This document shows positions 24,922-34,705 of a stretch of 64,000 nucleotides of DNA, one piece after another. How positions within the stretch are numbered: the first letter of the stretch is position 1; each line of letters starts with the position of its first letter. The stretch spans positions 744,001 to 808,000 of the forward strand of contig NZ_JAMGBE010000001.1 in NCBI RefSeq assembly GCF_023516575.1, read 5' to 3'. A program made the position numbers and the translations under genes. The notes under the pieces were generated by a model, which worked only from the letters and a program-made list of their open reading frames with translations, searched no databases and was not told where the DNA came from. This DNA comes from Sphingomonas hankyongi (GTDB lineage Bacteria > Pseudomonadota > Alphaproteobacteria > Sphingomonadales > Sphingomonadaceae).

Positions 24922-26742
24922 ATGGCAGACATCAGCAAAATCCGAAATTTCTCGATCATCGCGCATATCGACCACGGGAAGAGCACGCTCGCGGACCGGC
25001 TCATCCTCCGCACCGGGGGCCTCAGCGAGCGTGAGATGACCCACGGCCAGGTCCTCGACAATATGGAGATCGAGCAGGAGCGCGGGATCACCATCAAGGC
25101 GCAGACCGTGCGGCTCGAGTGGAACGGCTACGAGCTCAACCTGATGGACACGCCCGGCCACGTCGACTTCGCCTACGAGGTCAGCCGCAGCCTCGCCGCC
25201 TGCGAGGGCGCGCTTCTCGTTGTTGATGCTGCTCAAGGCGTCGAAGCCCAAACGCTGGCGAATGTGTACCAGTCGATCGAGCACGACCACGAGATCGTCC
25301 CGGTCATCAACAAGATCGACCTCCCCGCCGCGGACCCGGAAGGCGTTCGCCAGGAGATCGAGGAGATCATCGGCCTCGACGCCAGCGAAGCCGTCCTCGC
25401 CAGTGCGAAGAGCGGGATCGGAATCGACGAGGTGCTGCAGGCGATCGTCGACAGGATCCCGCCCCCGAAAGGCGATCGCGACGCGCCCCTGAAGGCAATG
25501 CTCGTCGACAGCTGGTACGACCCCTATCTCGGCGTCGTCATCCTCGTCCGCGTCATCGACGGCGTCTTGAAGAAGGGCCAGCAGGTCAAGTTCATGCAGG
25601 CGGGCACCACGCACCTGATCGACCGCGTCGGCTGCATGCGCCCCAAGATCGAGCAATTGCCCGAGCTTTCGGCGGGCGAGATCGGCTTCATCACCGCGCA
25701 GATCAAGGAAGTCGCGGAAACGCGCGTGGGCGACACGATCACCGACGCCAAGCGCCCCGCCCCCGCCCCGCTCCCGGGCTTCAAGGAAGTCCAGCCGGTG
25801 GTCTTCTGCGGCCTGTTCCCGGTCGACGCCGCGGACTTCGAGAAGCTCCGCGAAAGCCTCTACAAGCTCCGCCTCAACGACGCCTCCTTCAGCTTCGAGA
25901 CCGAGAGCAGCGCGGCGCTCGGCTTCGGCTTCCGCTGCGGCTTCCTCGGCCTCCTCCACCTCGAGATCATCCAGGAGCGGCTGACCCGCGAATATGACCT
26001 CGACCTCATCACCACCGCGCCGTCGGTGGTGTACCGGATGCACCTCACCCATTCGAAGAACGAGCCGGCGCAGGTGATCGAGCTGCACAACCCGGCCGAC
26101 ATGCCCGACCCCAACCGGATCGAGATGATCGAGGAGCCGTGGATCGAGGCGACCATCTATACCCCCGATGAGTATCTGGGGCCGATCCTCAAGCTGTGCC
26201 AGGACCGCCGCGGCATCCAGAAGAACCTCACTTATGTCGGCACCGGCGCCCACCAGCGCGCCCAGGTCACCTACGAGCTGCCGCTCAACGAAGTGGTGTT
26301 CGATTTCTACGACCGGCTGAAGTCGATCACCCGCGGCTATGCGAGCTTCGATTACCACCAGATCGGCCACCGTGAGGGCGACCTCGTCAAGATGAGCATC
26401 CTCGTCAACGAGGAGCCGGTCGATGCCTTGAGCATGATCACCCACCGCGGAACCGCCGAGGCCCGCGGGCGCGGCATGTGCGAGCGCCTGAAGGATTTGA
26501 TCCCCAGGCACATGTTCAAGATCCCGATCCAGGCCGCGATCGGCGGCAAGGTCATCGCCCGCGAGACGATCAGCGCGCTCCGGAAGGACGTCACCGCCAA
26601 ATGCTATGGCGGCGACGCGACCCGCAAACGCAAGCTCCTAGAGAAGCAGAAGAAGGGCAAGGCGCGGATGCGGGAATATGGGAATGTGAGCATCCCGCAG
26701 GAGGCATTCATCGCGGCCCTGAGGATGGGGGACGAAAGCTAA
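24922..26742 (+). CDS. lepA: Elongation factor 4 (LepA), ribosome back-translocating GTPase
   Basis: A 606-residue translational GTPase of normal length. Domain order is G domain with AHIDHGKST (14-22), [14 protein letters not shown] and NKIDLP; then domain II, the EF-G-like III and V domains, and the LepA-specific C-terminal domain ending near [19 protein letters not shown]. It binds the ribosome and helps translation initiation or elongation under stress. It is divergent from the secreted Met/Gly-rich gene and followed by the candidate toxin-antitoxin pair. Confidence 0.97.
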
Positions 26743-26755
26743 AGCTTCCGTCACC
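26728..26755 (+). terminator. Imperfect hairpin spanning the lepA stop codon
   Basis: The arms (GACGAAAGC and GCTTCCGTC flanked by GGG and CCC) pair with one mismatch and one bulge around a TAAA loop containing the stop codon. No T-run follows, so intrinsic termination is only possible. Confidence 0.35.
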
Positions 26756-26902
26756 CAAGCGGCGTCTTTCACCATTCGGCCAAGGCCGGGGTTGCTATTG
26801 TGACTCGGCGTGGCAAGGTGCTTGCGCTCGGATCAAGCATGTTCGTTTGTGCCGGTGGGCGGTGAAGCACGAACGAAACGCGCAGGCCGAGATTGGAGCG
26901 AG

Positions 26903-27076
26903 ATGACCGCGACTGAAGTTCTTGAAAAGCGTCGCGCCGCGTTACGCGCGTACGATAAGAAGGCGAAGGCCGACCCCGGTGGTGCACGCAAGCGCCTGAT
27001 CGCGACCGGCATCTACACGAAGGCTGGGAAGCTCCGTCCCGAGTTCGGCGGAGAGCCCGGCAAAGCGAAGGATTGA
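26903..27076 (+). CDS. Small basic protein, candidate antitoxin
   Basis: A 57-residue basic protein (start MTATEVLEKRRAALRAYDKK) with a helical N-terminal half and the segment RKRLIATGIYTKAGKLRPEF. I recall the GIYTKxGKL pattern from small proteins encoded beside toxin-like genes, but not a named family. GGAGCGAG lies just upstream of the ATG; the upstream in-frame start at 26810 has no site and is rejected. Its stop overlaps the next start by 4 bases (TTGA), the usual layout of an antitoxin-toxin pair. Confidence 0.6.
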   Translation: MTATEVLEKRRAALRAYDKKAKADPGGARKRLIATGIYTKAGKLRPEFGGEPGKAKD

Positions 27077-27669
27077 GCCGCCTCGCGGCGTCGTTCGTCC
27101 TTGGCTATCACGGCTGCGAAGCCCGAGTTGCCCGCAAGATCATCAATTGCGAAGAGCCTCTTCGGGCGAGCGACAAGAAATATGATTGGCTAGGGCCGGG
27201 CACCTATTTCTGGGAGTCCGATCCTTTCCGGGCAATGGAGTGGGCGCAACAGGCGAAGACGCGCGGCCGGATCGAAACGCCCGCTGTCGTCGGCGCCGTC
27301 ATCGATCTCGGTAATTGCCTCGACCTCCTCAACCGCGAAAATATTGAGTTGGTGCGCGATGCTCACCGGCTCTTCGTTCAGGAGCAAAAGCGCTCCGGGC
27401 TTCCCATACCGGCGAACCGCAGCCTGGAGGGCGAGCCGGAACGAATCCTTCGCTTCCTGGACCGGGCCGTTATCCAATTCCTTCATGAGATATTCGAGGT
27501 TGCGGGCGAGGCGGCGTTCGACAGCGTGCGCGGGCTGTTCCCCGAAGGTGACGAGCTTTACCCCGGCGCCGGGTTCCGACGGCGCAATCATATCCAGATC
27601 GCGGTATGCAACCCGAAGTTGATCCTTGGATTGTTCTACCCGCCGGATTACCCGCCAGCGGGCGACTAG
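27073..27669 (+). CDS. Putative ADP-ribosyltransferase-like toxin
   Basis: A 198-residue protein starting at a TTG that overlaps the previous stop. The N-terminal GYHGCEARVARKI (H13) and, about 30 residues later, DWLGPGTYFWESDPFRAMEWA (Y45) resemble the His and Tyr strands of ADP-ribosyltransferase folds, in which an H-Y-[E/Q] set binds NAD. NHIQIAV (H173, Q175) near the C-terminus could provide the third strand. The middle is helical. These matches are by eye only. With the small basic gene in front, this is a likely type II toxin-antitoxin module, but the toxin activity is inference. An alternative is a stand-alone nucleotide-binding enzyme. Confidence 0.55.
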   Translation: MSRLAASFVLGYHGCEARVARKIINCEEPLRASDKKYDWLGPGTYFWESDPFRAMEWAQQAKTRGRIETPAVVGAVIDLGNCLDLLNRENIELVRDAHRLFVQEQKRSGLPIPANRSLEGEPERILRFLDRAVIQFLHEIFEVAGEAAFDSVRGLFPEGDELYPGAGFRRRNHIQIAVCNPKLILGLFYPPDYPPAGD

Positions 27670-27738
27670 GCTCGGTGCTTCCGCCCTAACTTTTGCTAAT
27701 CTTGCGTGACGGCATCGTAACGATAGCCATTGCTCCAC

Positions 27739-27840
27739 TACCGCCGTTCCCAAGCGGCGGTACTCGGCGGGCAGCCTTCAGGCTGGGCCGATTGGGGGGA
27801 GGTCCGCGCTCATCCGCAACCCACGGGCGAGAGCGGACCT
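27739..27840 (+). ncRNA. Cluster of three hairpins, candidate structured RNA
   Basis: Three stem-loops follow each other. TACCGCCG/CGGCGGTA is at 27739-27762 (8 pairs, 8-base loop). CAGCC-TTCA-GGCTG is at 27772-27785. AGGTCCGC/GCGGACCT is at 27800-27840 with extra inner pairing (CTC/GAG), followed by TTTC. The last could be a terminator for the toxin-like gene. The set could also be a small RNA or mRNA 3' structure. No known RNA family was recognised. Confidence 0.35.
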
Positions 27841-27870
27841 TTCATCGAGGATTAGCCGGGCCAGACTGAC

Positions 27871-27896
27871 GTCACGTCGGATTTACTCCGCGTGAC
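27871..27896 (+). repeat. REP-like palindrome (variant 1)
   Basis: A 26-base imperfect palindrome with outer arms GTCACG/CGTGAC and inner CGGA/TCCG around TTTAC. It closely resembles, in inverse orientation, the element at 30584-30609. Confidence 0.6.
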
Positions 27897-27978
27897 GCAT
27901 TTTATCTTCTATGGCGGCTCCAAGTGAATTTGCGGCGGTGACTCATCCGCCGATCCTCGATCGAAAGACAAACCAACC

Positions 27979-28287
27979 ATGACCTACAACAGCACATTCA
28001 AGGACCGCGCCGCCCAGGCGGCCGAGGCCAAGCAGAAAGCGCTCGAGCGTTATCGCGCGCGGCCGCCGGTCGACCCGAAGGTCGCGGCGGAACGCGCCTC
28101 CGCCGCGCAGGAGCGGGAAGCCGCCAAGGCGCAGAGGGCCGCCGAGAGGAAAGCCGAGCGGCAAGCCGCCGCCGAGGCCAAGGCGGCCGGCGATGCGGCG
28201 AAGGCGGCAGCGGCGGCGCCGAAGACCGAGGCCGAGCTCAAGGCTGCGCGCGACGCGCGCTACGCTGCACGGAAGGCGAGGAAGTAA
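27979..28287 (+). CDS. Ala/Lys/Glu-rich coiled-coil protein (DUF6481-like)
   Basis: A 102-residue, almost entirely helical protein rich in Ala, Lys, Arg and Glu. It begins MTYNSTFKDRAAQAAEAKQK and carries on as one long charged coiled coil. I recall a sphingomonad family of this type (DUF6481) with the same NSFxDRAAxAAEAKxxAL opening; the assignment is from memory. Function unknown; nucleic acid or ribosome association would fit the charge. No signal peptide. Confidence 0.7.
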   Translation: MTYNSTFKDRAAQAAEAKQKALERYRARPPVDPKVAAERASAAQEREAAKAQRAAERKAERQAAAEAKAAGDAAKAAAAAPKTEAELKAARDARYAARKARK

Positions 28288-28301
28288 GTCGAGCGCCCGA
28301 G

Positions 28302-28339
28302 CATAAGCGAGCGCTCTGCAAGGCAGACGTGAGCTTATG
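28302..28339 (+). terminator. Nested hairpin after the coiled-coil gene
   Basis: CATAAGC (28302-28308) pairs with GCTTATG (28333-28339). Inside, TCTGC (28315-28319) pairs with GCAGA (28323-28327). It begins 15 bases after the stop codon and may end that transcript, although no T-run follows. Confidence 0.35.
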
Positions 28340-28406
28340 TCGAAGAGAGCGCGAGGCTCGGCCGGCGCGCGAGCGAGCGGCTAAACCGCGAGTGAGACGC
28401 GACCGA

Positions 28407-28431
28407 CGTCACGGGATTCACTCCCGTGACG
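28407..28431 (+). repeat. REP-like palindrome (variant 2, left copy)
   Basis: A 25-base perfect hairpin: CGTCACGGGA, loop TTCAC, TCCCGTGACG. Its exact reverse complement occurs at 31189-31213, 2.8 kb away. Confidence 0.75.
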
Positions 28432-28436
28432 GTCAC

Positions 28437-28611
28437 CTACAAATTGTTCGCGACGGTGTTGAACACGTCGGCGAGGATCACCCCCAACATCTGGAACGCG
28501 ATCAGGCACGCGACGGAGATGAGCGCGGCGATCCGGTCCGTACTCTTTGGACGTTGCGGCGCTTGTATAGTGGCTAGCTCTAAAACAATCGACTTCTTCC
28601 CGACAGTCCAC
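28437..28611 (-). pseudogene. Frameshifted Flp-type pilin remnant
   Basis: Read on the minus strand, one frame gives a leader ending SAATSKEYG. The frame shifted by one base gives RIAALISVACLIAFQ, then MLGVILADVFNTVANNL and a stop at 28437. Together these match the Flp/Fap pilin layout (G-A-T-A-I-E-Y-G-L-I-A-A-L-I-S-V, then a hydrophobic helix and F-N-T-x-x-x-N-L). Removing one base near 28535-28541 restores EYGRIAALIS. The putative GTG start at 28611 and the leader lack the usual basic residues, so decay is likely. A sequencing error is the other explanation. A REP-like palindrome follows the stop directly. No tad or cpa genes are in the window. Confidence 0.5.
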
Positions 28612-28689
28612 TTTCTTTCTTATCGTTATTGCCTATAGTTGTTTCTGAGGGCCTGATGGGGAGTAGTACAAGTCATGTGGACGCCGACA

Positions 28690-29193
28690 CTAAGCCCGTC
28701 GGAAAAAGAACTTGCCAGCACACGATCCGATTTCATGAAGCGTTGGGAGGTTCGGTTTTCCGAGGAAGCGCGAAGACTTCGAAGCCTCGAGCTTGATATT
28801 GGCAACTTTCTGCCAGCGTATCGGCGTGAGGTTGTCGAACCCCACCTTCCGAGCCCGGACCTGAAAGTCAGCGGAAAGTGGCAGAACGTAGTGCCTGCCC
28901 GCTTGGCGTCGAGAAACGCAGACGTCCCCTACGACACAGCAGACCCGACCACCTGGAACAAGTACACGCAGGCACTCTGCCCAGACTTTATCCATCTCTT
29001 CGAGGAATAACTCGTATGAGGCCATGTTCCCCAACTGGCCCTCGTGATCAGGATATTGAATTAGGGCCCCATAAGGCGGACTCGTGCAAACGAGGTGCAC
29101 GCTTTCAGTAGCAACTTCGGCCAGCTGCAGGTTTCGTGCGTCGCCCTCGATGATCTTATGCGTGCTCAACCACGGCGCCGTCGGCTTACTCAT
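28690..29193 (-). pseudogene. DNA methyltransferase (N4/N6 amino type), C-terminally truncated
   Basis: A 167-residue product. It has IIEGDARNL and the catalytic TSPPYGALIQYPDHEGQLG (SPPY motif IV), then RVLVPGGRVCCVVGD (motif V-VI region) and SRFLGKPNLP. Intact relatives usually go on for another 100 or more residues, with a conserved stretch after KPNLPN; here the frame leaves that pattern at about 28755 and ends 20 residues later. Either the enzyme is decayed or a frameshift has removed the end. No restriction endonuclease gene lies nearby. The ATG at 29193 has GGGAG upstream. Base composition around it is visibly poorer in G and C than in neighbours, which suggests transfer. Confidence 0.65.
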
Positions 29194-29494
29194 GCTCACT
29201 CCCGCCCAATGCGCTACTTAAGACGGGCTCATGCTTCTACGGCCAGCCCCCCCGGTGTGTTTATCGGGGATAAGTACCGCAGGCTGGACTCGTCTATCGC
29301 CAGCGTTAGATTCACCTTATGTTCTACTTGTTTGTACTGGAACCGGCTGAGGAGTCCAGCCGTGCAAAAAACGAGTCAGTCCGTTTTGGTGCTTGTTGAA
29401 GTGTGCCCGCTAACCTCCATCGACAGCCTGCCGAGCTTCGAAATGCGTCTTCGCCGTGCGTTCCCATTCGGCTTGCTCCTCACCGCCGTGCTCG
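29194..29494. other. 301-base non-coding stretch upstream of the methyltransferase remnant
   Basis: No credible gene is present. It contains the palindrome TTATCGGGGATAA (29261-29273) and a perfect 10-base inverted repeat, GGCTGGACTC (29282-29291) with GAGTCCAGCC (29352-29361). The part 29290-29400 is rich in T and A for this genome. The methyltransferase promoter would lie at its left end. Confidence 0.5.
29282..29361 (+). repeat. 10-base perfect inverted repeat, 60-base spacer
   Basis: GGCTGGACTC at 29282-29291 and GAGTCCAGCC at 29352-29361 would pair fully. They could be ends of a small decayed element or a long-loop RNA stem; no direct target duplication was recognised. Confidence 0.5.
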
Positions 29495-30532
29495 TCAGTC
29501 ACCCCGGACTGACTGCGCGCGACGGTCCTCCGCCCCCTGCCTCTCTTGCCAATCGGCTCTCGCCGCCGCCTCCCAACTGCGTTGCTCCTCGGCGTCTTCG
29601 GCGTTTTGCTTTTCCCGCGCCAGCTCCTGCTCGCGGTTGTCCATCTTCGCCCATTCTTCCTGTGAGTATCCGCGCGCGGGATGGCTGAGCGCGCCATAGT
29701 TCCTGTCGTCGACGGCGGTGCTCCAGCCGCCCGCGCCGCGGTTCCCCCACGGCCCTTCGCCATGCTTCACCGTCAGGCGCGGGTCGGGATGTTGGGGCCG
29801 GGGCGGGTCGCCCTGCTCCTCCCAATAGACCCTTCGCGCATTGTCGAGCCAGGTGGAGAAGGGCGTCTCGACCACCTCCAGCAGGCGGTGGCCGCCGCGG
29901 CGCAGGTTGCGCAGCACCTCCTGCGCGTCCCAGCCGAACTTGCTCGCGGTGAGGTCGAAAAGGATTTCGATCATCGTGATCTGACGCAGGTAGAAATCGG
30001 CGGCGACGATCCGGCCGGCGAGCCGCGCCTCCCTCTCCGCCATCACCTTGCGCAGGAACTTGGCGCCGAGCTTCTCCATCAGCTCCATCTTCAGGTCGTT
30101 GGACATTTCGGGCTCGGGCTCGGGGAATGGCCCGCCGCCCGCGGACGAAAGAAGCTTAGCGCGGCGGGTGATGCCCGGCACCTCGCCCAGGAAAGGCGGC
30201 TGGGAGTCGAGGCCGTTGCGGCGGCGGCCGATGATGATCGCGGCGTCCCACGACTGGCGGAAGCTGGTCGCGCCGGGAGTCTTGTAGAGCGCCTCCGCCC
30301 CCGTCGCATGCTTCCCCATCTGCCACACGGCCGATTGCACGGTGCCCGTGGCGGCGATGCGCGCGACCAGCTCCCTCTGAAGCTCCGGAGTCCAGCCGTC
30401 CGGGCGCTTCACCTTGCGGACGACGGGATCGAAGCGGAGCAAGGGCGCGATCTCTGGATCGGCGGCGAGGGTTGCGAATTCGGGGATTTCGGGGCCGCTT
30501 GCGGGCGCGGCCGACCCAATGAGTGCGTTCAT
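29495..30532 (-). CDS. Hypothetical protein with helix-turn-helix-like N-terminus
   Basis: A 345-residue protein I cannot name. Residues about 44-105 (KRPDGWTPELQRELVARIAA, then a Q-M-G-K-x-A-x-G turn and FRQSWDAA) look like a helix-turn-helix of the kind seen in terminase-small-subunit-like and recombinase-associated proteins. I recall sphingomonad hypothetical proteins with a similar WTPxxQxxFLxxLAxxGxVxxAA opening. The middle is helical. The last 100 residues are rich in Glu, Gln, Arg and Trp and predicted largely helical. The ATG at 30532 is chosen; the frame is open upstream only through repeat sequence. Prophage or mobile origin is possible but not shown. Confidence 0.6.
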   Translation of the reverse strand: MNALIGSAAPASGPEIPEFATLAADPEIAPLLRFDPVVRKVKRPDGWTPELQRELVARIAATGTVQSAVWQMGKHATGAEALYKTPGATSFRQSWDAAIIIGRRRNGLDSQPPFLGEVPGITRRAKLLSSAGGGPFPEPEPEMSNDLKMELMEKLGAKFLRKVMAEREARLAGRIVAADFYLRQITMIEILFDLTASKFGWDAQEVLRNLRRGGHRLLEVVETPFSTWLDNARRVYWEEQGDPPRPQHPDPRLTVKHGEGPWGNRGAGGWSTAVDDRNYGALSHPARGYSQEEWAKMDNREQELAREKQNAEDAEEQRSWEAAARADWQERQGAEDRRAQSVRGD

Positions 30533-30557
30533 CCGCGAGTCTGGAGCAGAAAATATT

Positions 30558-30596
30558 CGAGTAGGAAAATTCGTGAGGGAAGCGTCACGCGGAATG
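30558..30596 (+). repeat. 39-base direct repeat, copy 1
   Basis: Begins CGAGTAGGAAAATTCGTGAG and runs to GGAATG at 30596; identical to 30709-30747. It lies just upstream of the HTH-like gene and runs into the palindrome at 30584-30609. Confidence 0.8.
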
Positions 30597-30609
30597 AATC
30601 CGACGTGAC
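30584..30609 (+). repeat. REP-like palindrome (variant 1, inverse orientation)
   Basis: A 26-base imperfect palindrome, GTCACGCGGA, ATGAA, TCCGACGTGAC. Its reverse complement differs from 27871-27896 only in the loop region. Confidence 0.6.
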
Positions 30610-30708
30610 GTCGATCGCCACTCGCAATGCTCGGGCGTCGGCCGACGTTTCGCATCTCTCGACTAGCTCGCGTGGCGCCTGCGCCTGCTCGCTATTCTCG
30701 GTGCTTCA

Positions 30709-30747
30709 CGAGTAGGAAAATTCGTGAGGGAAGCGTCACGCGGAATG
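30709..30747 (+). repeat. 39-base direct repeat, copy 2
   Basis: Identical to 30558-30596, 151 bases downstream, upstream of the Pro-rich secreted gene. Its right end runs into a different hairpin (30749-30769). Confidence 0.8.
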
Positions 30748-30772
30748 GATGCTGAAACGAGTTCAGCATGAC
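30735..30772 (+). repeat. REP-like hairpin of the ATGCTGAA/TTCAGCAT type
   Basis: ATGCTGAA (30749-30756) pairs with TTCAGCAT (30762-30769) around ACGAG, inside outer GTCA/TGAC ends. I remember this GGATGCTGAAACxAGTTCAG motif as a frequent intergenic repeat in sphingomonads. Confidence 0.6.
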
Positions 30773-30798
30773 GGTTCGGAGGAGTATAAGCCCCCTGC

Positions 30799-31179
30799 AT
30801 GAAGGCCGCTTGCTTCGCCTTGCTCATCCTCGCGGCGTCGGGCGCGGGGGCGCAGTCGCTTCCGCCGGGCGGCTTCCGGAGCCCGCCGCCGCCCGCTGCG
30901 CATGGCGGCTTCCACGGCTTCCCGGGCGCCTTCTTCCCGATCGAGAATGACGTCGTCTATGTCGAGCGCGAGGTGATCCGCGAAGTGCCGGTCGCGCCCG
31001 CCGCTCCGCCCGCTCCTCCACCGCCGCCGCGCAAGCCCTGGTCGCTCGGCGCAAGCTACGACTCGCTGCCGTCCGGATGCATGAAGATGCTGTCCGACGG
31101 CGTGTCCTTCTACAATTGCAGCGGCGAATGGTACCGGCAGGTCGCGGCGCACAGCTACAGGGCTGTCGAGGGGCCGTAG
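30799..31179 (+). CDS. Small secreted Pro-rich protein of unknown function
   Basis: A 126-residue protein with a signal peptide ending at GAGAQ (residue 19), then a Pro/Gly-rich segment, the acidic stretch IENDVVYVEREVIREVPV, a run of Pro and Ala, and a C-terminal module with two Cys (SGCMKML and FYNCSGEWYR) that may form a disulfide. The C-terminal GCxxxxxxGVxFYxCxxxWYR pattern looks like a small surface-exposed domain; I do not know a family. It lies right after the 39-base repeat and REP-like hairpin and is followed by another REP-like palindrome. Confidence 0.65.
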   Translation: MKAACFALLILAASGAGAQSLPPGGFRSPPPPAAHGGFHGFPGAFFPIENDVVYVEREVIREVPVAPAAPPAPPPPPRKPWSLGASYDSLPSGCMKMLSDGVSFYNCSGEWYRQVAAHSYRAVEGP

Positions 31180-31188
31180 GGCCGCACG

Positions 31189-31213
31189 CGTCACGGGAGT
31201 GAATCCCGTGACG
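31189..31213 (+). repeat. REP-like palindrome (variant 2, right copy)
   Basis: CGTCACGGGA, loop GTGAA, TCCCGTGACG: the exact reverse complement of 28407-28431. It begins 9 bases after the stop of the Pro-rich gene and could also act as its terminator hairpin. Confidence 0.75.
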
Positions 31214-31325
31214 TCAGTCCTGTCGCTCCGCGCAGGCCGGCCGCGTCGGCGAGCGTCTCTCGGCCAAGCCAAAGCGTGCTTGCGCATCGTTTGTCTTAGC
31301 CGCGGCGCATCGCTACGCTACCGGC

Positions 31326-32258
31326 ATGATTATCGACGTCCGGGCGCTGTTCGAACGGCAGATGACGTTTCCGAACCCGGATGCGCGCGCCCGGCTCCAC
31401 AGCCTCGTCGGGCTGGACGGGCACATCGACCTGCTGCGCAAGATCCTGGCGCTCCTGGTCTATCCGACCGCGCTGCTGCGCTGGGGCGAGAAATATCATC
31501 CGGGCGCGAAGCTGCTGATCGACGCGGTGCTGACGCGGCCGCCGCTGGTGATCCTCGCCGGGGACGTCGGGTCGGGCAAGACGGCGCTCGCGGAATCGAT
31601 CGGCGACGCAGTGGCGCGCGACGCGATGATCGAGGTGACGCTCTTACCGCTGAGCCTCGCGGCCCGCGGCCAGGGGCGGATCGGCGAGATGACGCAGCTC
31701 ATCTCCGCCGCGTTCGACCATACGATCAAGGAAGCGAGCACGATGATCGCCGGCGAGATCACGGAGGGCGCGGTGATCCTGCTGGTCGACGAGGCCGATG
31801 CGCTCGCCCAGTCGCGCGCGACCGCCGAGATGCATCATGAGGACGTCAGTGGCGTCAACGCCTTCATCCGCGGCATCGACCGGCTGTCGAGCCGGCGGCT
31901 GCCGGCGGCGGTGATCATGTGCACCAACCGCTACGAGGCGCTCGACCCGGCGGTGAAACGGCGCGCGGCGGAGATCCTGACCTTCGAGCGGCCGAACGAC
32001 GAAAAGCGCAAGCTGCTACTCGGCCCGAAGCTCGCCGAGCTCGGCTTCTCGGACGCGGAGATCGACAGGGTCGTCGCGGCGACCGGGCCGCGCAACGGCA
32101 CCTACGGCTTCACTTACTCCGACCTCGCCCAGCGGCTGATCCCGGCGATGGTGCTCGACGCCTATCCGGAGCAGGCGATCTCTCCGGCGCGGGCGCTTGA
32201 GCTCGCCGAAGCGATGGTGCCGACGGCGCCCTTCAACGAAGCGGGCGGCGCGCTCTAG
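31326..32258 (+). CDS. AAA+ ATPase, Pch2/TRIP13-like
   Basis: A 310-residue single AAA+ module. Walker A is GDVGSGKT (79-86), Walker B ILLVDEAD (151-158), sensor 1 MCTNR (198-202) and a basic KRRA (about 211-214) follows as arginine-finger candidate. The region between the Walker motifs (LAARGQGRIGEM, then RGIDRL) resembles Pch2/TRIP13 ATPases, which remodel HORMA-domain proteins in eukaryotes and in some bacterial CBASS defence systems. No HORMA, cyclase or effector gene is near, so the partner is unknown. The family call is by eye. A hybrid kinase gene begins 74 bases downstream. Confidence 0.7.
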   Translation: MIIDVRALFERQMTFPNPDARARLHSLVGLDGHIDLLRKILALLVYPTALLRWGEKYHPGAKLLIDAVLTRPPLVILAGDVGSGKTALAESIGDAVARDAMIEVTLLPLSLAARGQGRIGEMTQLISAAFDHTIKEASTMIAGEITEGAVILLVDEADALAQSRATAEMHHEDVSGVNAFIRGIDRLSSRRLPAAVIMCTNRYEALDPAVKRRAAEILTFERPNDEKRKLLLGPKLAELGFSDAEIDRVVAATGPRNGTYGFTYSDLAQRLIPAMVLDAYPEQAISPARALELAEAMVPTAPFNEAGGAL

Positions 32259-32332
32259 CCAAGTGCATCGCGCAGCAGCCAAACGTCTGTAATAACGCGT
32301 TTAGCCCGAGTCGTGCGGGTGCAGGGGAGTAG

Positions 32333-34705
32333 ATGGCGCGCAAGGCGAAAGACGTGATCGAGTCGGACACCGCTCCGCCTCCCATCGAGCTGCCTGCAGC
32401 GATGTTCAGCGGTCCCGGGCTGCTAACGCTTGCCGACCTGCTGCCGGTCATGACGGCCTTCGTCGACCGCGACCTTCGCTATCGCTTCATTAACAAGCCG
32501 CTCGCCGAATGGCTCGAGCAGCCGCGGCGTAAGTTGATCGGGCTGCACATGCGGGAGGTCATCGGCGACGAGGCGTTCGAGCATCGCGAACCGATGCTGA
32601 AGGCCGCGCTGGAGGGCGAGCGGCAGTTCTTCGCATCCACCTTCAACCACCCGGCGCGCGGGCTCGTCGCCGCGCAGACCGACTACACTCCCTGGGTGAA
32701 TCCCGGCACCGGCGAGGTCGACGGGATCGTCATCGTCGTCACCGACATCACCGAGCAACGCGTCACCGAACGCGCGCTTAGGGAAAGCGAGGAGAGATTT
32801 CGCCGCATCGCGAACAATGCGCCGGCGCTGATGTGGGTGACCCGGCTCGACCGCGTGCGCGACTTCGTCAACGACGCTTATTGCGAGTTCCTCGGAATGG
32901 CGCACGAAGAGGCGCGGGTGCTCGACTGGCGAGATCGCATTCATCCGGAGGATGTCGACCGAATCGTCGCCGAGAGTATCGCGGGGGAAGCGGCCCTGCA
33001 GCGCTTCACGCTTGAGGGGCGGTACCTGCGGCATGACGGCGAATATCGCTGGATCCGAAGCGTATCCCAGCCGCGCTTCGGTCCCGACGGCGACCTCAGC
33101 GGCTTCATCGGCGTCGGAACGGACATCACCGTCCGGAAGGAGGCGGAGCTCGAGCTCATGCGCCTCGTCGAAGAACGCACTGGCCAGCTGGCAGCCTCCG
33201 AAGCCCAGTTCCGCGCGGTGTTCGAAGCGGCGCTGGAAGTCATGGTGCTGCTGGAACCGGACGGCACGGTGATAGCGGTGAACAACCGGCGGGAGATCTG
33301 GCGGCACCCCAAGCCGGAAGATGCAATCGGCACGAAGCTGTGGGACGCGCCGACCATGAGCGCCTATCCGCAGCACCGCGCAGTGATGCAGGAAGGCATC
33401 CGCGCCGCGGCGCGCGGAGAAGTGTTCACCACCGAAGTGAAGATGGAGCGCGAGAGGATGCCGACGGCATTCCTCGATGTTTCCGTGCAACCTGTCCGCG
33501 GGCCCGACGGATCGATCATCTATCTCCTCTTCGAAGCGCGCGACATCACCGAGCTCAAGACTGCGCAGGAGCAGCTGCGGCAGAGCCAGAAGATGGAGGC
33601 GCTAGGCCAGCTCACGGGCGGCATCGCGCACGATTTCAACAACCTCCTTACCGTGGTCGTCGGCGGGCTGGACCTCATCGCCAAGCGTGCCGACGATGCC
33701 AAGCTCAGGCGCTACGCCGAAAATGCGCTTGCAGCGGCCGAGCGCGGAGCACGGCTTACCGGCCAGTTGCTTGCCTTCAGCCGCGTGCAGCGGCTGGAAG
33801 TACGCCCGACGCAGGTCGCTCCGCTGATCGAGAGCATGCGGCCTTTGCTCCGAAACGTGCTCGGACCCGGGATCAGCAAGACCTTCGACCTGGACGAGGA
33901 AATGCTGCCGGTTATGGCCGATCCGACGCAGCTGGAGGTCGCCGTCCTGAACCTTGCGATCAATGCGCGTGACGCCATGACCGACGGGGGCGTGCTCCAT
34001 TTCGCAAGCCGCAAGGTCGAGGTCACGAGCGATTCCGAGCTGGAAGACGGCAGCTATATCGAGCTTACGATCAGCGACACCGGCGCCGGCATGACGGAAG
34101 ACGTCGCCAGCCGCGCCTTCGAGCCGTTCTTCACCACGAAGGAGGTCGGCAAGGGTACCGGGCTAGGCCTGTCGATGGTCTACGGAATGGCGCGGCAGTC
34201 GGGCGGCACGGCGCGGATCGAAAGCGCGCCAGGCCTCGGCACCGCCGTCAAAATGTACTTCAAGGCAGCGGAGGGCGCCACGGTAGCCGATGCCGCACAT
34301 CCGGACAGGGAGGCGGAGGAGGATTTGGCGACTCACCACGCCGCCTCCGTGCTGGTGATCGACGACGATCCGGATGTTCGCAGCTTCATCGTCGCGACGC
34401 TTGAGGAGCAGGGCTATCGCGTCCACGAAGCGAGCGACGGGCGAGCGGGTCTCGCTGAACTGCAGCGCGCGGACCCGGACCTGGTTATCCTGGACTTCAT
34501 CATGCCCGGCCTGTCCGGAGCGGAGGTCGCCAGCCGGATACTTCGCAAGCAACCCGACCTGCCGATCCTGTTCGTGTCCGGCTACAGCGAGACAGAGGCG
34601 GTCAAGCGGGTTGCGCCCCACGCCCCATTGCTCGCGAAGCCGTTCCGCTCCGATGCGCTCGAGAAGGCCGTGCGCGGAGCCCTGGCCGAACGGGCAAATT
34701 CCTAG
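32333..34705 (+). CDS. Hybrid sensor histidine kinase (PAS x3 - HisKA - HATPase - receiver)
   Basis: A 790-residue cytoplasmic kinase. Three PAS domains (about 30-145, 150-275 and 290-405) come first; the second ends with a typical PAC motif. The phosphoacceptor is in [12 protein letters not shown], followed by an ATPase with [10 protein letters not shown] (N box), DTGAGM and GTGLGLSM. A receiver domain closes the protein: [10 protein letters not shown], the phospho-Asp in VILDFIMPG, and the Lys in LAKPF. There are no membrane segments, so it senses an internal signal. No output-domain regulator is adjacent. GGGGAG precedes the ATG. Confidence 0.93.

Follow-up and report, generated by a model that had tools for sequence, protein, structure and literature searches.

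The 64,000-nt stretch of Sphingomonas hankyongi DNA considered here (contig NZ_JAMGBE010000001.1, positions 744,001 to 808,000; hereafter, the window) carries, within 3.3 kb, four related palindromes with GTCACG/CGTGAC ends. A first-pass annotation took these for repetitive extragenic palindromic (REP) elements that had accumulated here or that marked a rearranged segment, a reading that gives way to that of a terminal hairpin in a larger covarying structure, one with a tendency to begin at the 3′ ends of genes. Of the ~130 nt of this structure, the palindrome makes up just the last ~25, and the window copies are probably the 3′-terminal hairpins of a family of structured RNA elements that lie mostly at gene ends and would act there as a gene-end barrier. 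We favor the reading that they represent a new family of RNA structures at gene ends, which resemble REPs in where they lie but not in how they are built, and which would insulate or protect mRNA 3′ ends, this function being one that we infer. We take the structure, the strand preference, the position and the pairing with the gene end to be established by the comparisons below.

Architecture and Covariation of the Element

In each full copy, the palindrome forms the 3′-terminal hairpin (P3) of an element of ~130 nt (range about 100–150 nt) with six helices, the majority of which covary, laid out as a basal helix (H1/H2), a hairpin (P1), a GGC/GCC helix enclosing a further hairpin (P2), and P3. 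P1 is set off by an internal loop, CCGAG/GAAGAG, that is nearly invariant though largely unpaired in the model, and P2 carries a bulged nucleotide and is closed by the short GGC/GCC helix. In a seed alignment, for which 25 copies were retained from 37 trimmed by hand (an exploratory fold had used all but three of 46 copies), the 47 modeled pairs in the six helices hold in 89.0% of the cells, and 31 of the 47 show two-sided change. Cells changed on both sides number 199, compared with 67.5 in shuffles, and the covariation score is 0.440, falling to 0.163 on shuffling and to no more than 0.067 on sliding the partner by 1–3 columns; helix covariation, the mark of a structured cis-acting RNA, thus lies above both the shuffled and the slid controls. 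The P3 stem is the best conserved part of the element, with two-sided change in one of its ten pairs, and the GGC/GCC helix shows no two-sided change in the seed.

The modeled strand holds 40 G-U and 19 A-C cells in the seed, and 186 and 57, respectively, in a larger set of 122 elements, whose pairing filter favors G-U. Such an excess of G-U over A-C is as expected if the modeled strand folds as RNA. The 122 elements were drawn from 162 distinct aligned matches and kept if they had >75% pairing and at least 38 pairs, and one of them (L017:1376–1528) is an opposite-strand match overlapping another member. A separate alignment (A4) holds 150 of 177 matches, including opposite-strand and partial ones.

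Position at Gene Ends and Host Genes

The start of the element tends to coincide with the end of a gene on the same strand. A sense open reading frame (ORF, at least 60 codons) has its stop within 12 nt of the element start in 75 of 120 elements (a set without the lepA loci), compared with 6–29 of 120 at eight shifted positions and 21 of 113 when the same measure is applied to the opposite strand at the other end of the element; a similar opposite-strand control with shorter ORFs gave 81 versus 29 of 122. With a codon-usage gene caller, a same-strand upstream gene was found for 62 of 90 elements, and its stop codon ends 0–10 nt inside the element start in 43 of these (eight of the 43 having been fetched via lepA). 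Genes for stable RNAs can also be followed by the element, which begins 0–1 nt after three tRNAs (L028, L031, and L079) and at the end of the signal recognition particle (SRP) RNA at L016.

The same host genes recur. Among 81 elements with a host ORF, 19 share theirs with an element in another genome, forming eight groups, and the named recurring hosts include lepA, RpoA, RpoD, NusG, YchF and CtaD; a GcrA-like gene (NCBIfam E 9.2e-42, under the model's cut-off) is a host in three genomes, including that of the window, as judged from gene ends. The lepA stop carries an element in 8 of the 19 relatives whose fetched stretch includes the end of lepA, and it does not do so in the genome of the window. 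Around the lepA stop at L124, tandem copies of a long hairpin unit repeat the end of lepA together with its stop codon.

The downstream surroundings bear on termination. Where the upstream gene is in the sense orientation, a convergent gene comes next in 30/61 and 19/30 cases in two sets (L067 is in both), so that convergent neighbors are somewhat commoner than the background of 38–43% at gene 3′ ends. No U-tract follows the element: over the ten positions directly downstream, T stays at 15–30% per position (n = 122). At L097 and L100, from two other genera, the element lies between same-strand rpoA and rplQ, which normally form one operon.

Pairing of the Basal Helix with the Host Gene

In most copies, H1 begins where the upstream gene ends and its 3′ strand pairs with the last nucleotides of that gene, the stop codon frequently lying within or next to the helix. 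In a test in which the 9 nt before H2 were paired with their own partner strand or, in 5000 shuffles, with partners from other elements, elements with the stop inside (n = 44) had a mean pairing energy of −4.94 kcal/mol with their own partner and −3.48 with those of others, and 0 of 5000 shuffles were as low. The corresponding values are −4.31 and −3.16 where the stop lies just before the element (n = 30), and −4.55 and −3.00 for the remaining elements (n = 48). In the lepA elements of eight species, the last codons differ and the H1 partners match them by inspection (for example, GAAT/ATTC, GGAGT/ACTCC, GGG/CCC, and GCU/AGC), with H1 present in the minimum-energy fold of six of the eight. One genome of another genus has, at rpoA, an 11-bp helix, GGCTGATTTTC/GAAAATCAGCC, that runs through the stop codon, and at nusG (L052), a helix with one bulge spans the last codons and the stop. 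Transposition of a copy whose end is fixed would hardly yield such a host-matched H1, which is consistent with selection acting on site or with the copying of one arm from the other.

Distribution and Relationships of the Copies

A covariance model of the element (R1, 132 positions; its E-values are rough because the calibration was shortened) matches 67 of 71 genomes of the genus at E 0.01, with 0–35 matches per genome and five in the genome of the window. Among sampled genomes of the order, 17 of 147 genomes and 6 of 56 genera gave matches, and all 17 genomes fall in the window's own family, probably the Sphingomonadaceae, six of them in the window's own genus; the nearest named relative encountered is Sphingomonas sediminicola. 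A search for the palindrome with at most two mismatches found it in 20 of 61 genomes, all of one genus, in some cases with matched changes on both arms. Clusters occur elsewhere too, with four elements in 2.1 kb of L051, and tail-to-tail pairs occur, as at G069 C1:264300/264430.

There are few signs of a recent spread. No near-identical whole copies are found among the 122 elements, and the best normalized alignment score outside P3, 0.70, belongs to orthologous rpoD elements of different genomes. The nearest relative lies within the same genome for 20 of 101 elements, where 7.5 would be expected. Two elements of one genome (L148 and L152) are identical over at least 50 nt of P2–P3 and differ in the rest, as are two elements of different genomes (L067 and L075), which points to modules being at times copied between elements. 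Searches of plasmids with two queries gave no match, and two P3 patterns gave three and no loci in viral contigs, of which the one inspected (L162) has what appears to be a full element. A motif, TGTAGGAMA, stands just upstream of 10 of the 122 elements (L029, L050, L022, L054, L018, L024, L026, L159, L129, and L137). The 1.0 Mb of fetched DNA contains TGTAGGACAG 38 times when both strands are counted (overlapping loci counted more than once), and GTGTAGGACAGC has no occurrence in the window's own genome.

The Elements of the Window

All four palindromes of the first-pass annotation are indeed present, the pattern GTCACGN{6,30}CGTGAC matching at 27871–27896, 28408–28430, 30584–30609, and 31190–31212, compared with a mean of 0.13 matches in shuffles, where a count of four was reached in 0 of 100. 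In the 2.55-Mb genome, this loose pattern, which would miss more diverged palindromes in the genome-wide count as well, finds 10 places, six of which belong to the family by sequence. Four of these six fall in the 3.3-kb stretch and two outside the window (C1:110879 and C1:224381), so that the clustering is real. The palindromes at 27871 and 30584 have a common variant stem that is absent from the other four copies of this genome. The copies at 28407–28431 and 31189–31213 are exact reverse complements, again as first described, and longer arms of 36 nt around them are 92% complementary. The inverted pair consists of two elements that face each other and share P3, which is conserved in the family and nearly palindromic in itself; this makes the match exact, and a rearrangement is not needed to explain it.

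The best-preserved element occupies 28287–28434 on the plus strand (97.6 bits; sense strand) and starts at the stop codon (TAA, 28285–28287) of its host, a DUF6481 gene (27979–28287, plus strand; PF20089, E 7.7e-12). Its computed fold has an energy of −76.4 kcal/mol (z −4.4), which none of 200 shuffles equaled, with the P2 hairpin of the minimum-energy fold at 28363–28405 (helix 5 of the structure model) and P3, the left member of the inverted pair, at 28407–28431 as the terminal hairpin with the loop UUCAC; its 3′ end lies 2 nt from the stop of a convergent pilin remnant. Upstream of the DUF6481 gene, a lone P3-type palindrome (27868–27898, plus strand) appears to be a remnant, giving no R1 match at E 0.05, with the rest of the element not recognized. 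Two weaker elements lie on the minus strand. One (30580–30711, 64.3 bits, P3 at 30584–30609) follows no called gene end and precedes a minus-strand gene (29495–30531), and the other (31186–31315, 69.9 bits, P3 at 31190–31212) lies between a small-protein gene and an AAA ATPase gene, antisense to both and with no called host.

The broken pilin gene reported between the inverted palindromes is plausible as a remnant of 37 aa of a Flp/Fap pilin C-terminus (28437–28550, minus strand, convergent with the DUF6481 gene), with a match to Flp_Fap that is weak (E 0.0013, below the Pfam cut-off). The truncated DNA methyltransferase (28690–29199, minus strand) is borne out, as only positions 1–84 of 221 of N6_N4_Mtase are matched. 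GC content in the methyltransferase region is 51–58%, and a lower-GC stretch, 28437–29400, holds both the pilin remnant and the truncated methyltransferase. Comparison with 20 fetched relatives shows strong variation in gene content between lepA and a PAS/histidine kinase gene (26742–32333): the distance between the lepA and kinase matches ranges from 241 bp (L107) to >7 kb (L117), and the gap between the helix-turn-helix and AAA genes is 180 bp in L122 and ~795 bp in the window. No evidence that the palindromes caused this variation was found among the relatives compared, which included no sister strain carrying the segment in inverted form or lacking it cleanly.

A Direct Repeat and a Second Palindrome Family

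A further relative of the palindrome had been reported at 30735. It does contain half of the palindrome, by way of a 42-bp direct repeat, and proves to be a chimera that runs into another palindrome family. The first copy of the repeat (family D2, 98% identity; 30558–30599, plus strand) takes in half of P3 and its downstream flank, and the second (30709–30750, plus strand) continues into the other family, the two copies bracketing most of the 30580–30711 element. The repeat has the look of a duplication, one end of which falls within the hairpin.

The second family, GTCATGCTGAACTYGTTTCAGCATC, has a solitary copy at 30748–30772 (minus strand). It occurs in 14 of the 31 genomes searched, many copies being solitary, and among the places listed there are five close pairs, 366–419 bp apart, four inverted and one direct (G000 C1:334771–335181, which is L011, and L165, L192, L193, and L194). 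All five pairs, from five genomes, enclose a GIY-YIG gene, which Pfam confirms in four, and this suggests that GTCATGCTGAACTYGTTTCAGCATC is a REP-type repeat with a small GIY-YIG endonuclease as partner in place of the REP-associated tyrosine transposase (RAYT). A literature search found no description of this association.

Comparison with Known Systems

REP sequences and the bacterial interspersed mosaic elements (BIMEs) that they build in E. coli are intergenic, multicopy, and hairpin-forming, and often lie right behind a stop codon or between the genes of an operon; in some operons, they protect the upstream message as a gene-end barrier. Newbury reportedly placed E. coli REP palindromes at gene 3′ ends in 1987. 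The present element shares the intergenic location, the multiple copies, and the hairpins behind stops, but is ~130 nt long, with six helices, conserved unpaired loops, and an H1 paired with the end of the host gene, and its whole copies are diverged, with some lying behind tRNA and SRP RNA genes. The absence of a RAYT gene from the window, as first described, extends to the whole genome, where the Y1 transposase model PF01797 has no match; matches are present in 2 of 41 genomes of the genus. The palindrome (about 20–40 nt) is not the whole unit, even if a lone P3 exists at 27868–27898, and near-identical copies within a genome are lacking (best whole pair 0.70), apart from the P2–P3 identity of L148 and L152. 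Membership of the REP/RAYT class is ruled out by the 132-position model, the lack of a RAYT and the divergence of whole copies.

Osteras is said to have described Rhizobium-specific intergenic mosaic elements in Sinorhizobium meliloti in 1995, and we know of no stop-codon anchoring of REP or mosaic elements in that species. One account (PMC2873474) gives 26 REP elements of S. meliloti with transcriptional activity; by description, the elements of that species resemble the present one as alphaproteobacterial intergenic palindromes, some of which are transcribed there.

With intrinsic terminators, the element has in common a GC-rich hairpin behind genes, but it lacks the U-tract and sits between rpoA and rplQ at two loci, and the missing U-tract rules out a terminator of the classical kind. 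Like the structured RNA families of Rfam, it combines a covarying structure with conserved loops, but no family of Rfam 15, searched at permissive E-values with 26700–31400 of the window and 22 related loci, reaches its gathering score on the element. Matches above cut-off in these loci are to tRNA and SRP RNA only, and those below it are at chance level, including RefA5 (E 4.3), which touches the edge of the 30580–30711 element; a known Rfam 15 family is thus ruled out. Phage or plasmid cargo was rejected on the searches of plasmids with two queries and of viral contigs with two P3 patterns, and a rearranged segment bounded by an inverted repeat became unnecessary once P3 was seen to be a conserved module. 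A literature search on the family, its hosts, REPs, and mosaic elements, covering titles and the starts of abstracts outside the subscription journals, found none describing the element.

Interpretation and Alternative Explanations

A gene-end barrier could work as follows. The element would be transcribed as part of the transcript of the upstream gene and would fold after the last ribosome clears the stop codon. The folded element would shield the upstream message from 3′-to-5′ exonucleases and separate it from the next gene, akin to what E. coli REPs do in some operons, and its fold may be read by a protein or through a tertiary contact, as the conservation of unpaired nucleotides suggests. 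Transcription, protection, and a factor bound to the element are put forward here as proposals. In the window, one well-preserved element ends the DUF6481 gene, two weaker ones lie antisense without a called host, and one is reduced to P3. In a more specific form, which we put forward tentatively and think possible, the elements are RNA "caps" of gene ends: each closes over the stop codon, or over the 3′ end of a tRNA, through pairing with the host gene's last nucleotides, and could fold only after the last ribosome leaves, with the helix re-matched to each host as species diverge.

Several points weigh against a gene-end barrier. Three of the four window copies are remnants or lack a host gene, and 45 of 120 elements have no sense stop at their start, a few of which follow a tRNA or SRP RNA, while 10 of 122 stand just behind TGTAGGAMA. 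Elements off sense stops pair in H1 equally well, so that H1 pairing belongs to the element as such and is not confined to gene ends, and the computed minimum-energy folds of the lepA elements L114 and L117 lack H1. P3 hardly varies in the seed, the structure model was hand-drawn from the same sequences on which it was tested, and the 122-element set was filtered for pairing. Copy numbers of 0–35 per genome mean that no single copy seems indispensable, and the two pairs of elements identical over at least 50 nt of P2–P3 count here as well. The function, finally, is what we infer from the comparison of sequences.

Among the alternatives, a non-autonomous mobile repeat, similar to REPs or to miniature inverted-repeat transposable elements (MITEs), that inserts preferentially behind gene 3′ ends and has to fold, in the form of single-stranded DNA or of RNA, to be mobile, would account for the range of copy numbers, the clusters in the window and at L051, the conserved P3, the placement of 10 of 122 elements just after the repeated TGTAGGAMA, the excess of nearest relatives within the same genome (20/101 versus 7.5), and the identical P2–P3 stretches of some copies. 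It is nevertheless somewhat unlikely, given that a Y1 transposase is absent from this genome and present in 2 of 41 of the genus, that no near-identical whole copies occur among the 122 (the best score being that of the orthologous rpoD elements), that H1 pairs with host codons, and that plasmids gave no match to two queries and viral contigs three and none to two P3 patterns. Slightly less probable still is a transcription terminator of the upstream gene, whether an unusual Rho-independent form or one linked to Rho: the location directly behind genes, including a few for tRNA and SRP RNA, and the convergent next genes (30/61 and 19/30, with a background of 38–43%) are what a terminator would lead one to expect, whereas the lack of a U-tract and the same-strand order rpoA–element–rplQ in two other genera are not.

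Mutation bias offers an explanation without any use for the structure, in which template switching between the arms, together with conversion between copies at conserved anchors, keeps the stems matched. The lepA elements L112 and L115, which differ in the whole of P2 with P1 nearly the same, and the identical P2–P3 stretches of L148/L152 and L067/L075 could arise in this way, and codons at gene ends are fixed by protein selection, so that the other arm could be copied from them. Correction between arms should, however, remove the unpaired CCGAG/GAAGAG and the bulge, which persist, and recurrence at the same host genes is also at odds with mutation bias, which we regard as improbable. Ordinary REPs piled up here, or an inverted pair marking a rearranged segment, would agree with the four of six genome copies in 3.3 kb and with the differing gene content between lepA and the kinase gene among relatives, but the exact inverted match follows from the larger structure, its tendency to begin where genes end, and a P3 conserved between species, which leaves this the least probable reading, one to which we give very little credence.

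Implications

On the preferred reading of gene-end RNA structures, the family adds a large structured element with no Rfam 15 match that almost all examined genomes of one genus carry and that also occurs in five other genera of the same family, with housekeeping genes among its hosts. The case also shows that a REP-like palindrome can be the conspicuous end of something larger. That H1 often covers the stop codon and pairs with the last codons gives a testable link between the termination of translation and the fate of the mRNA 3′ end, and the "caps", if real, would couple the completion of translation to what becomes of the transcript.

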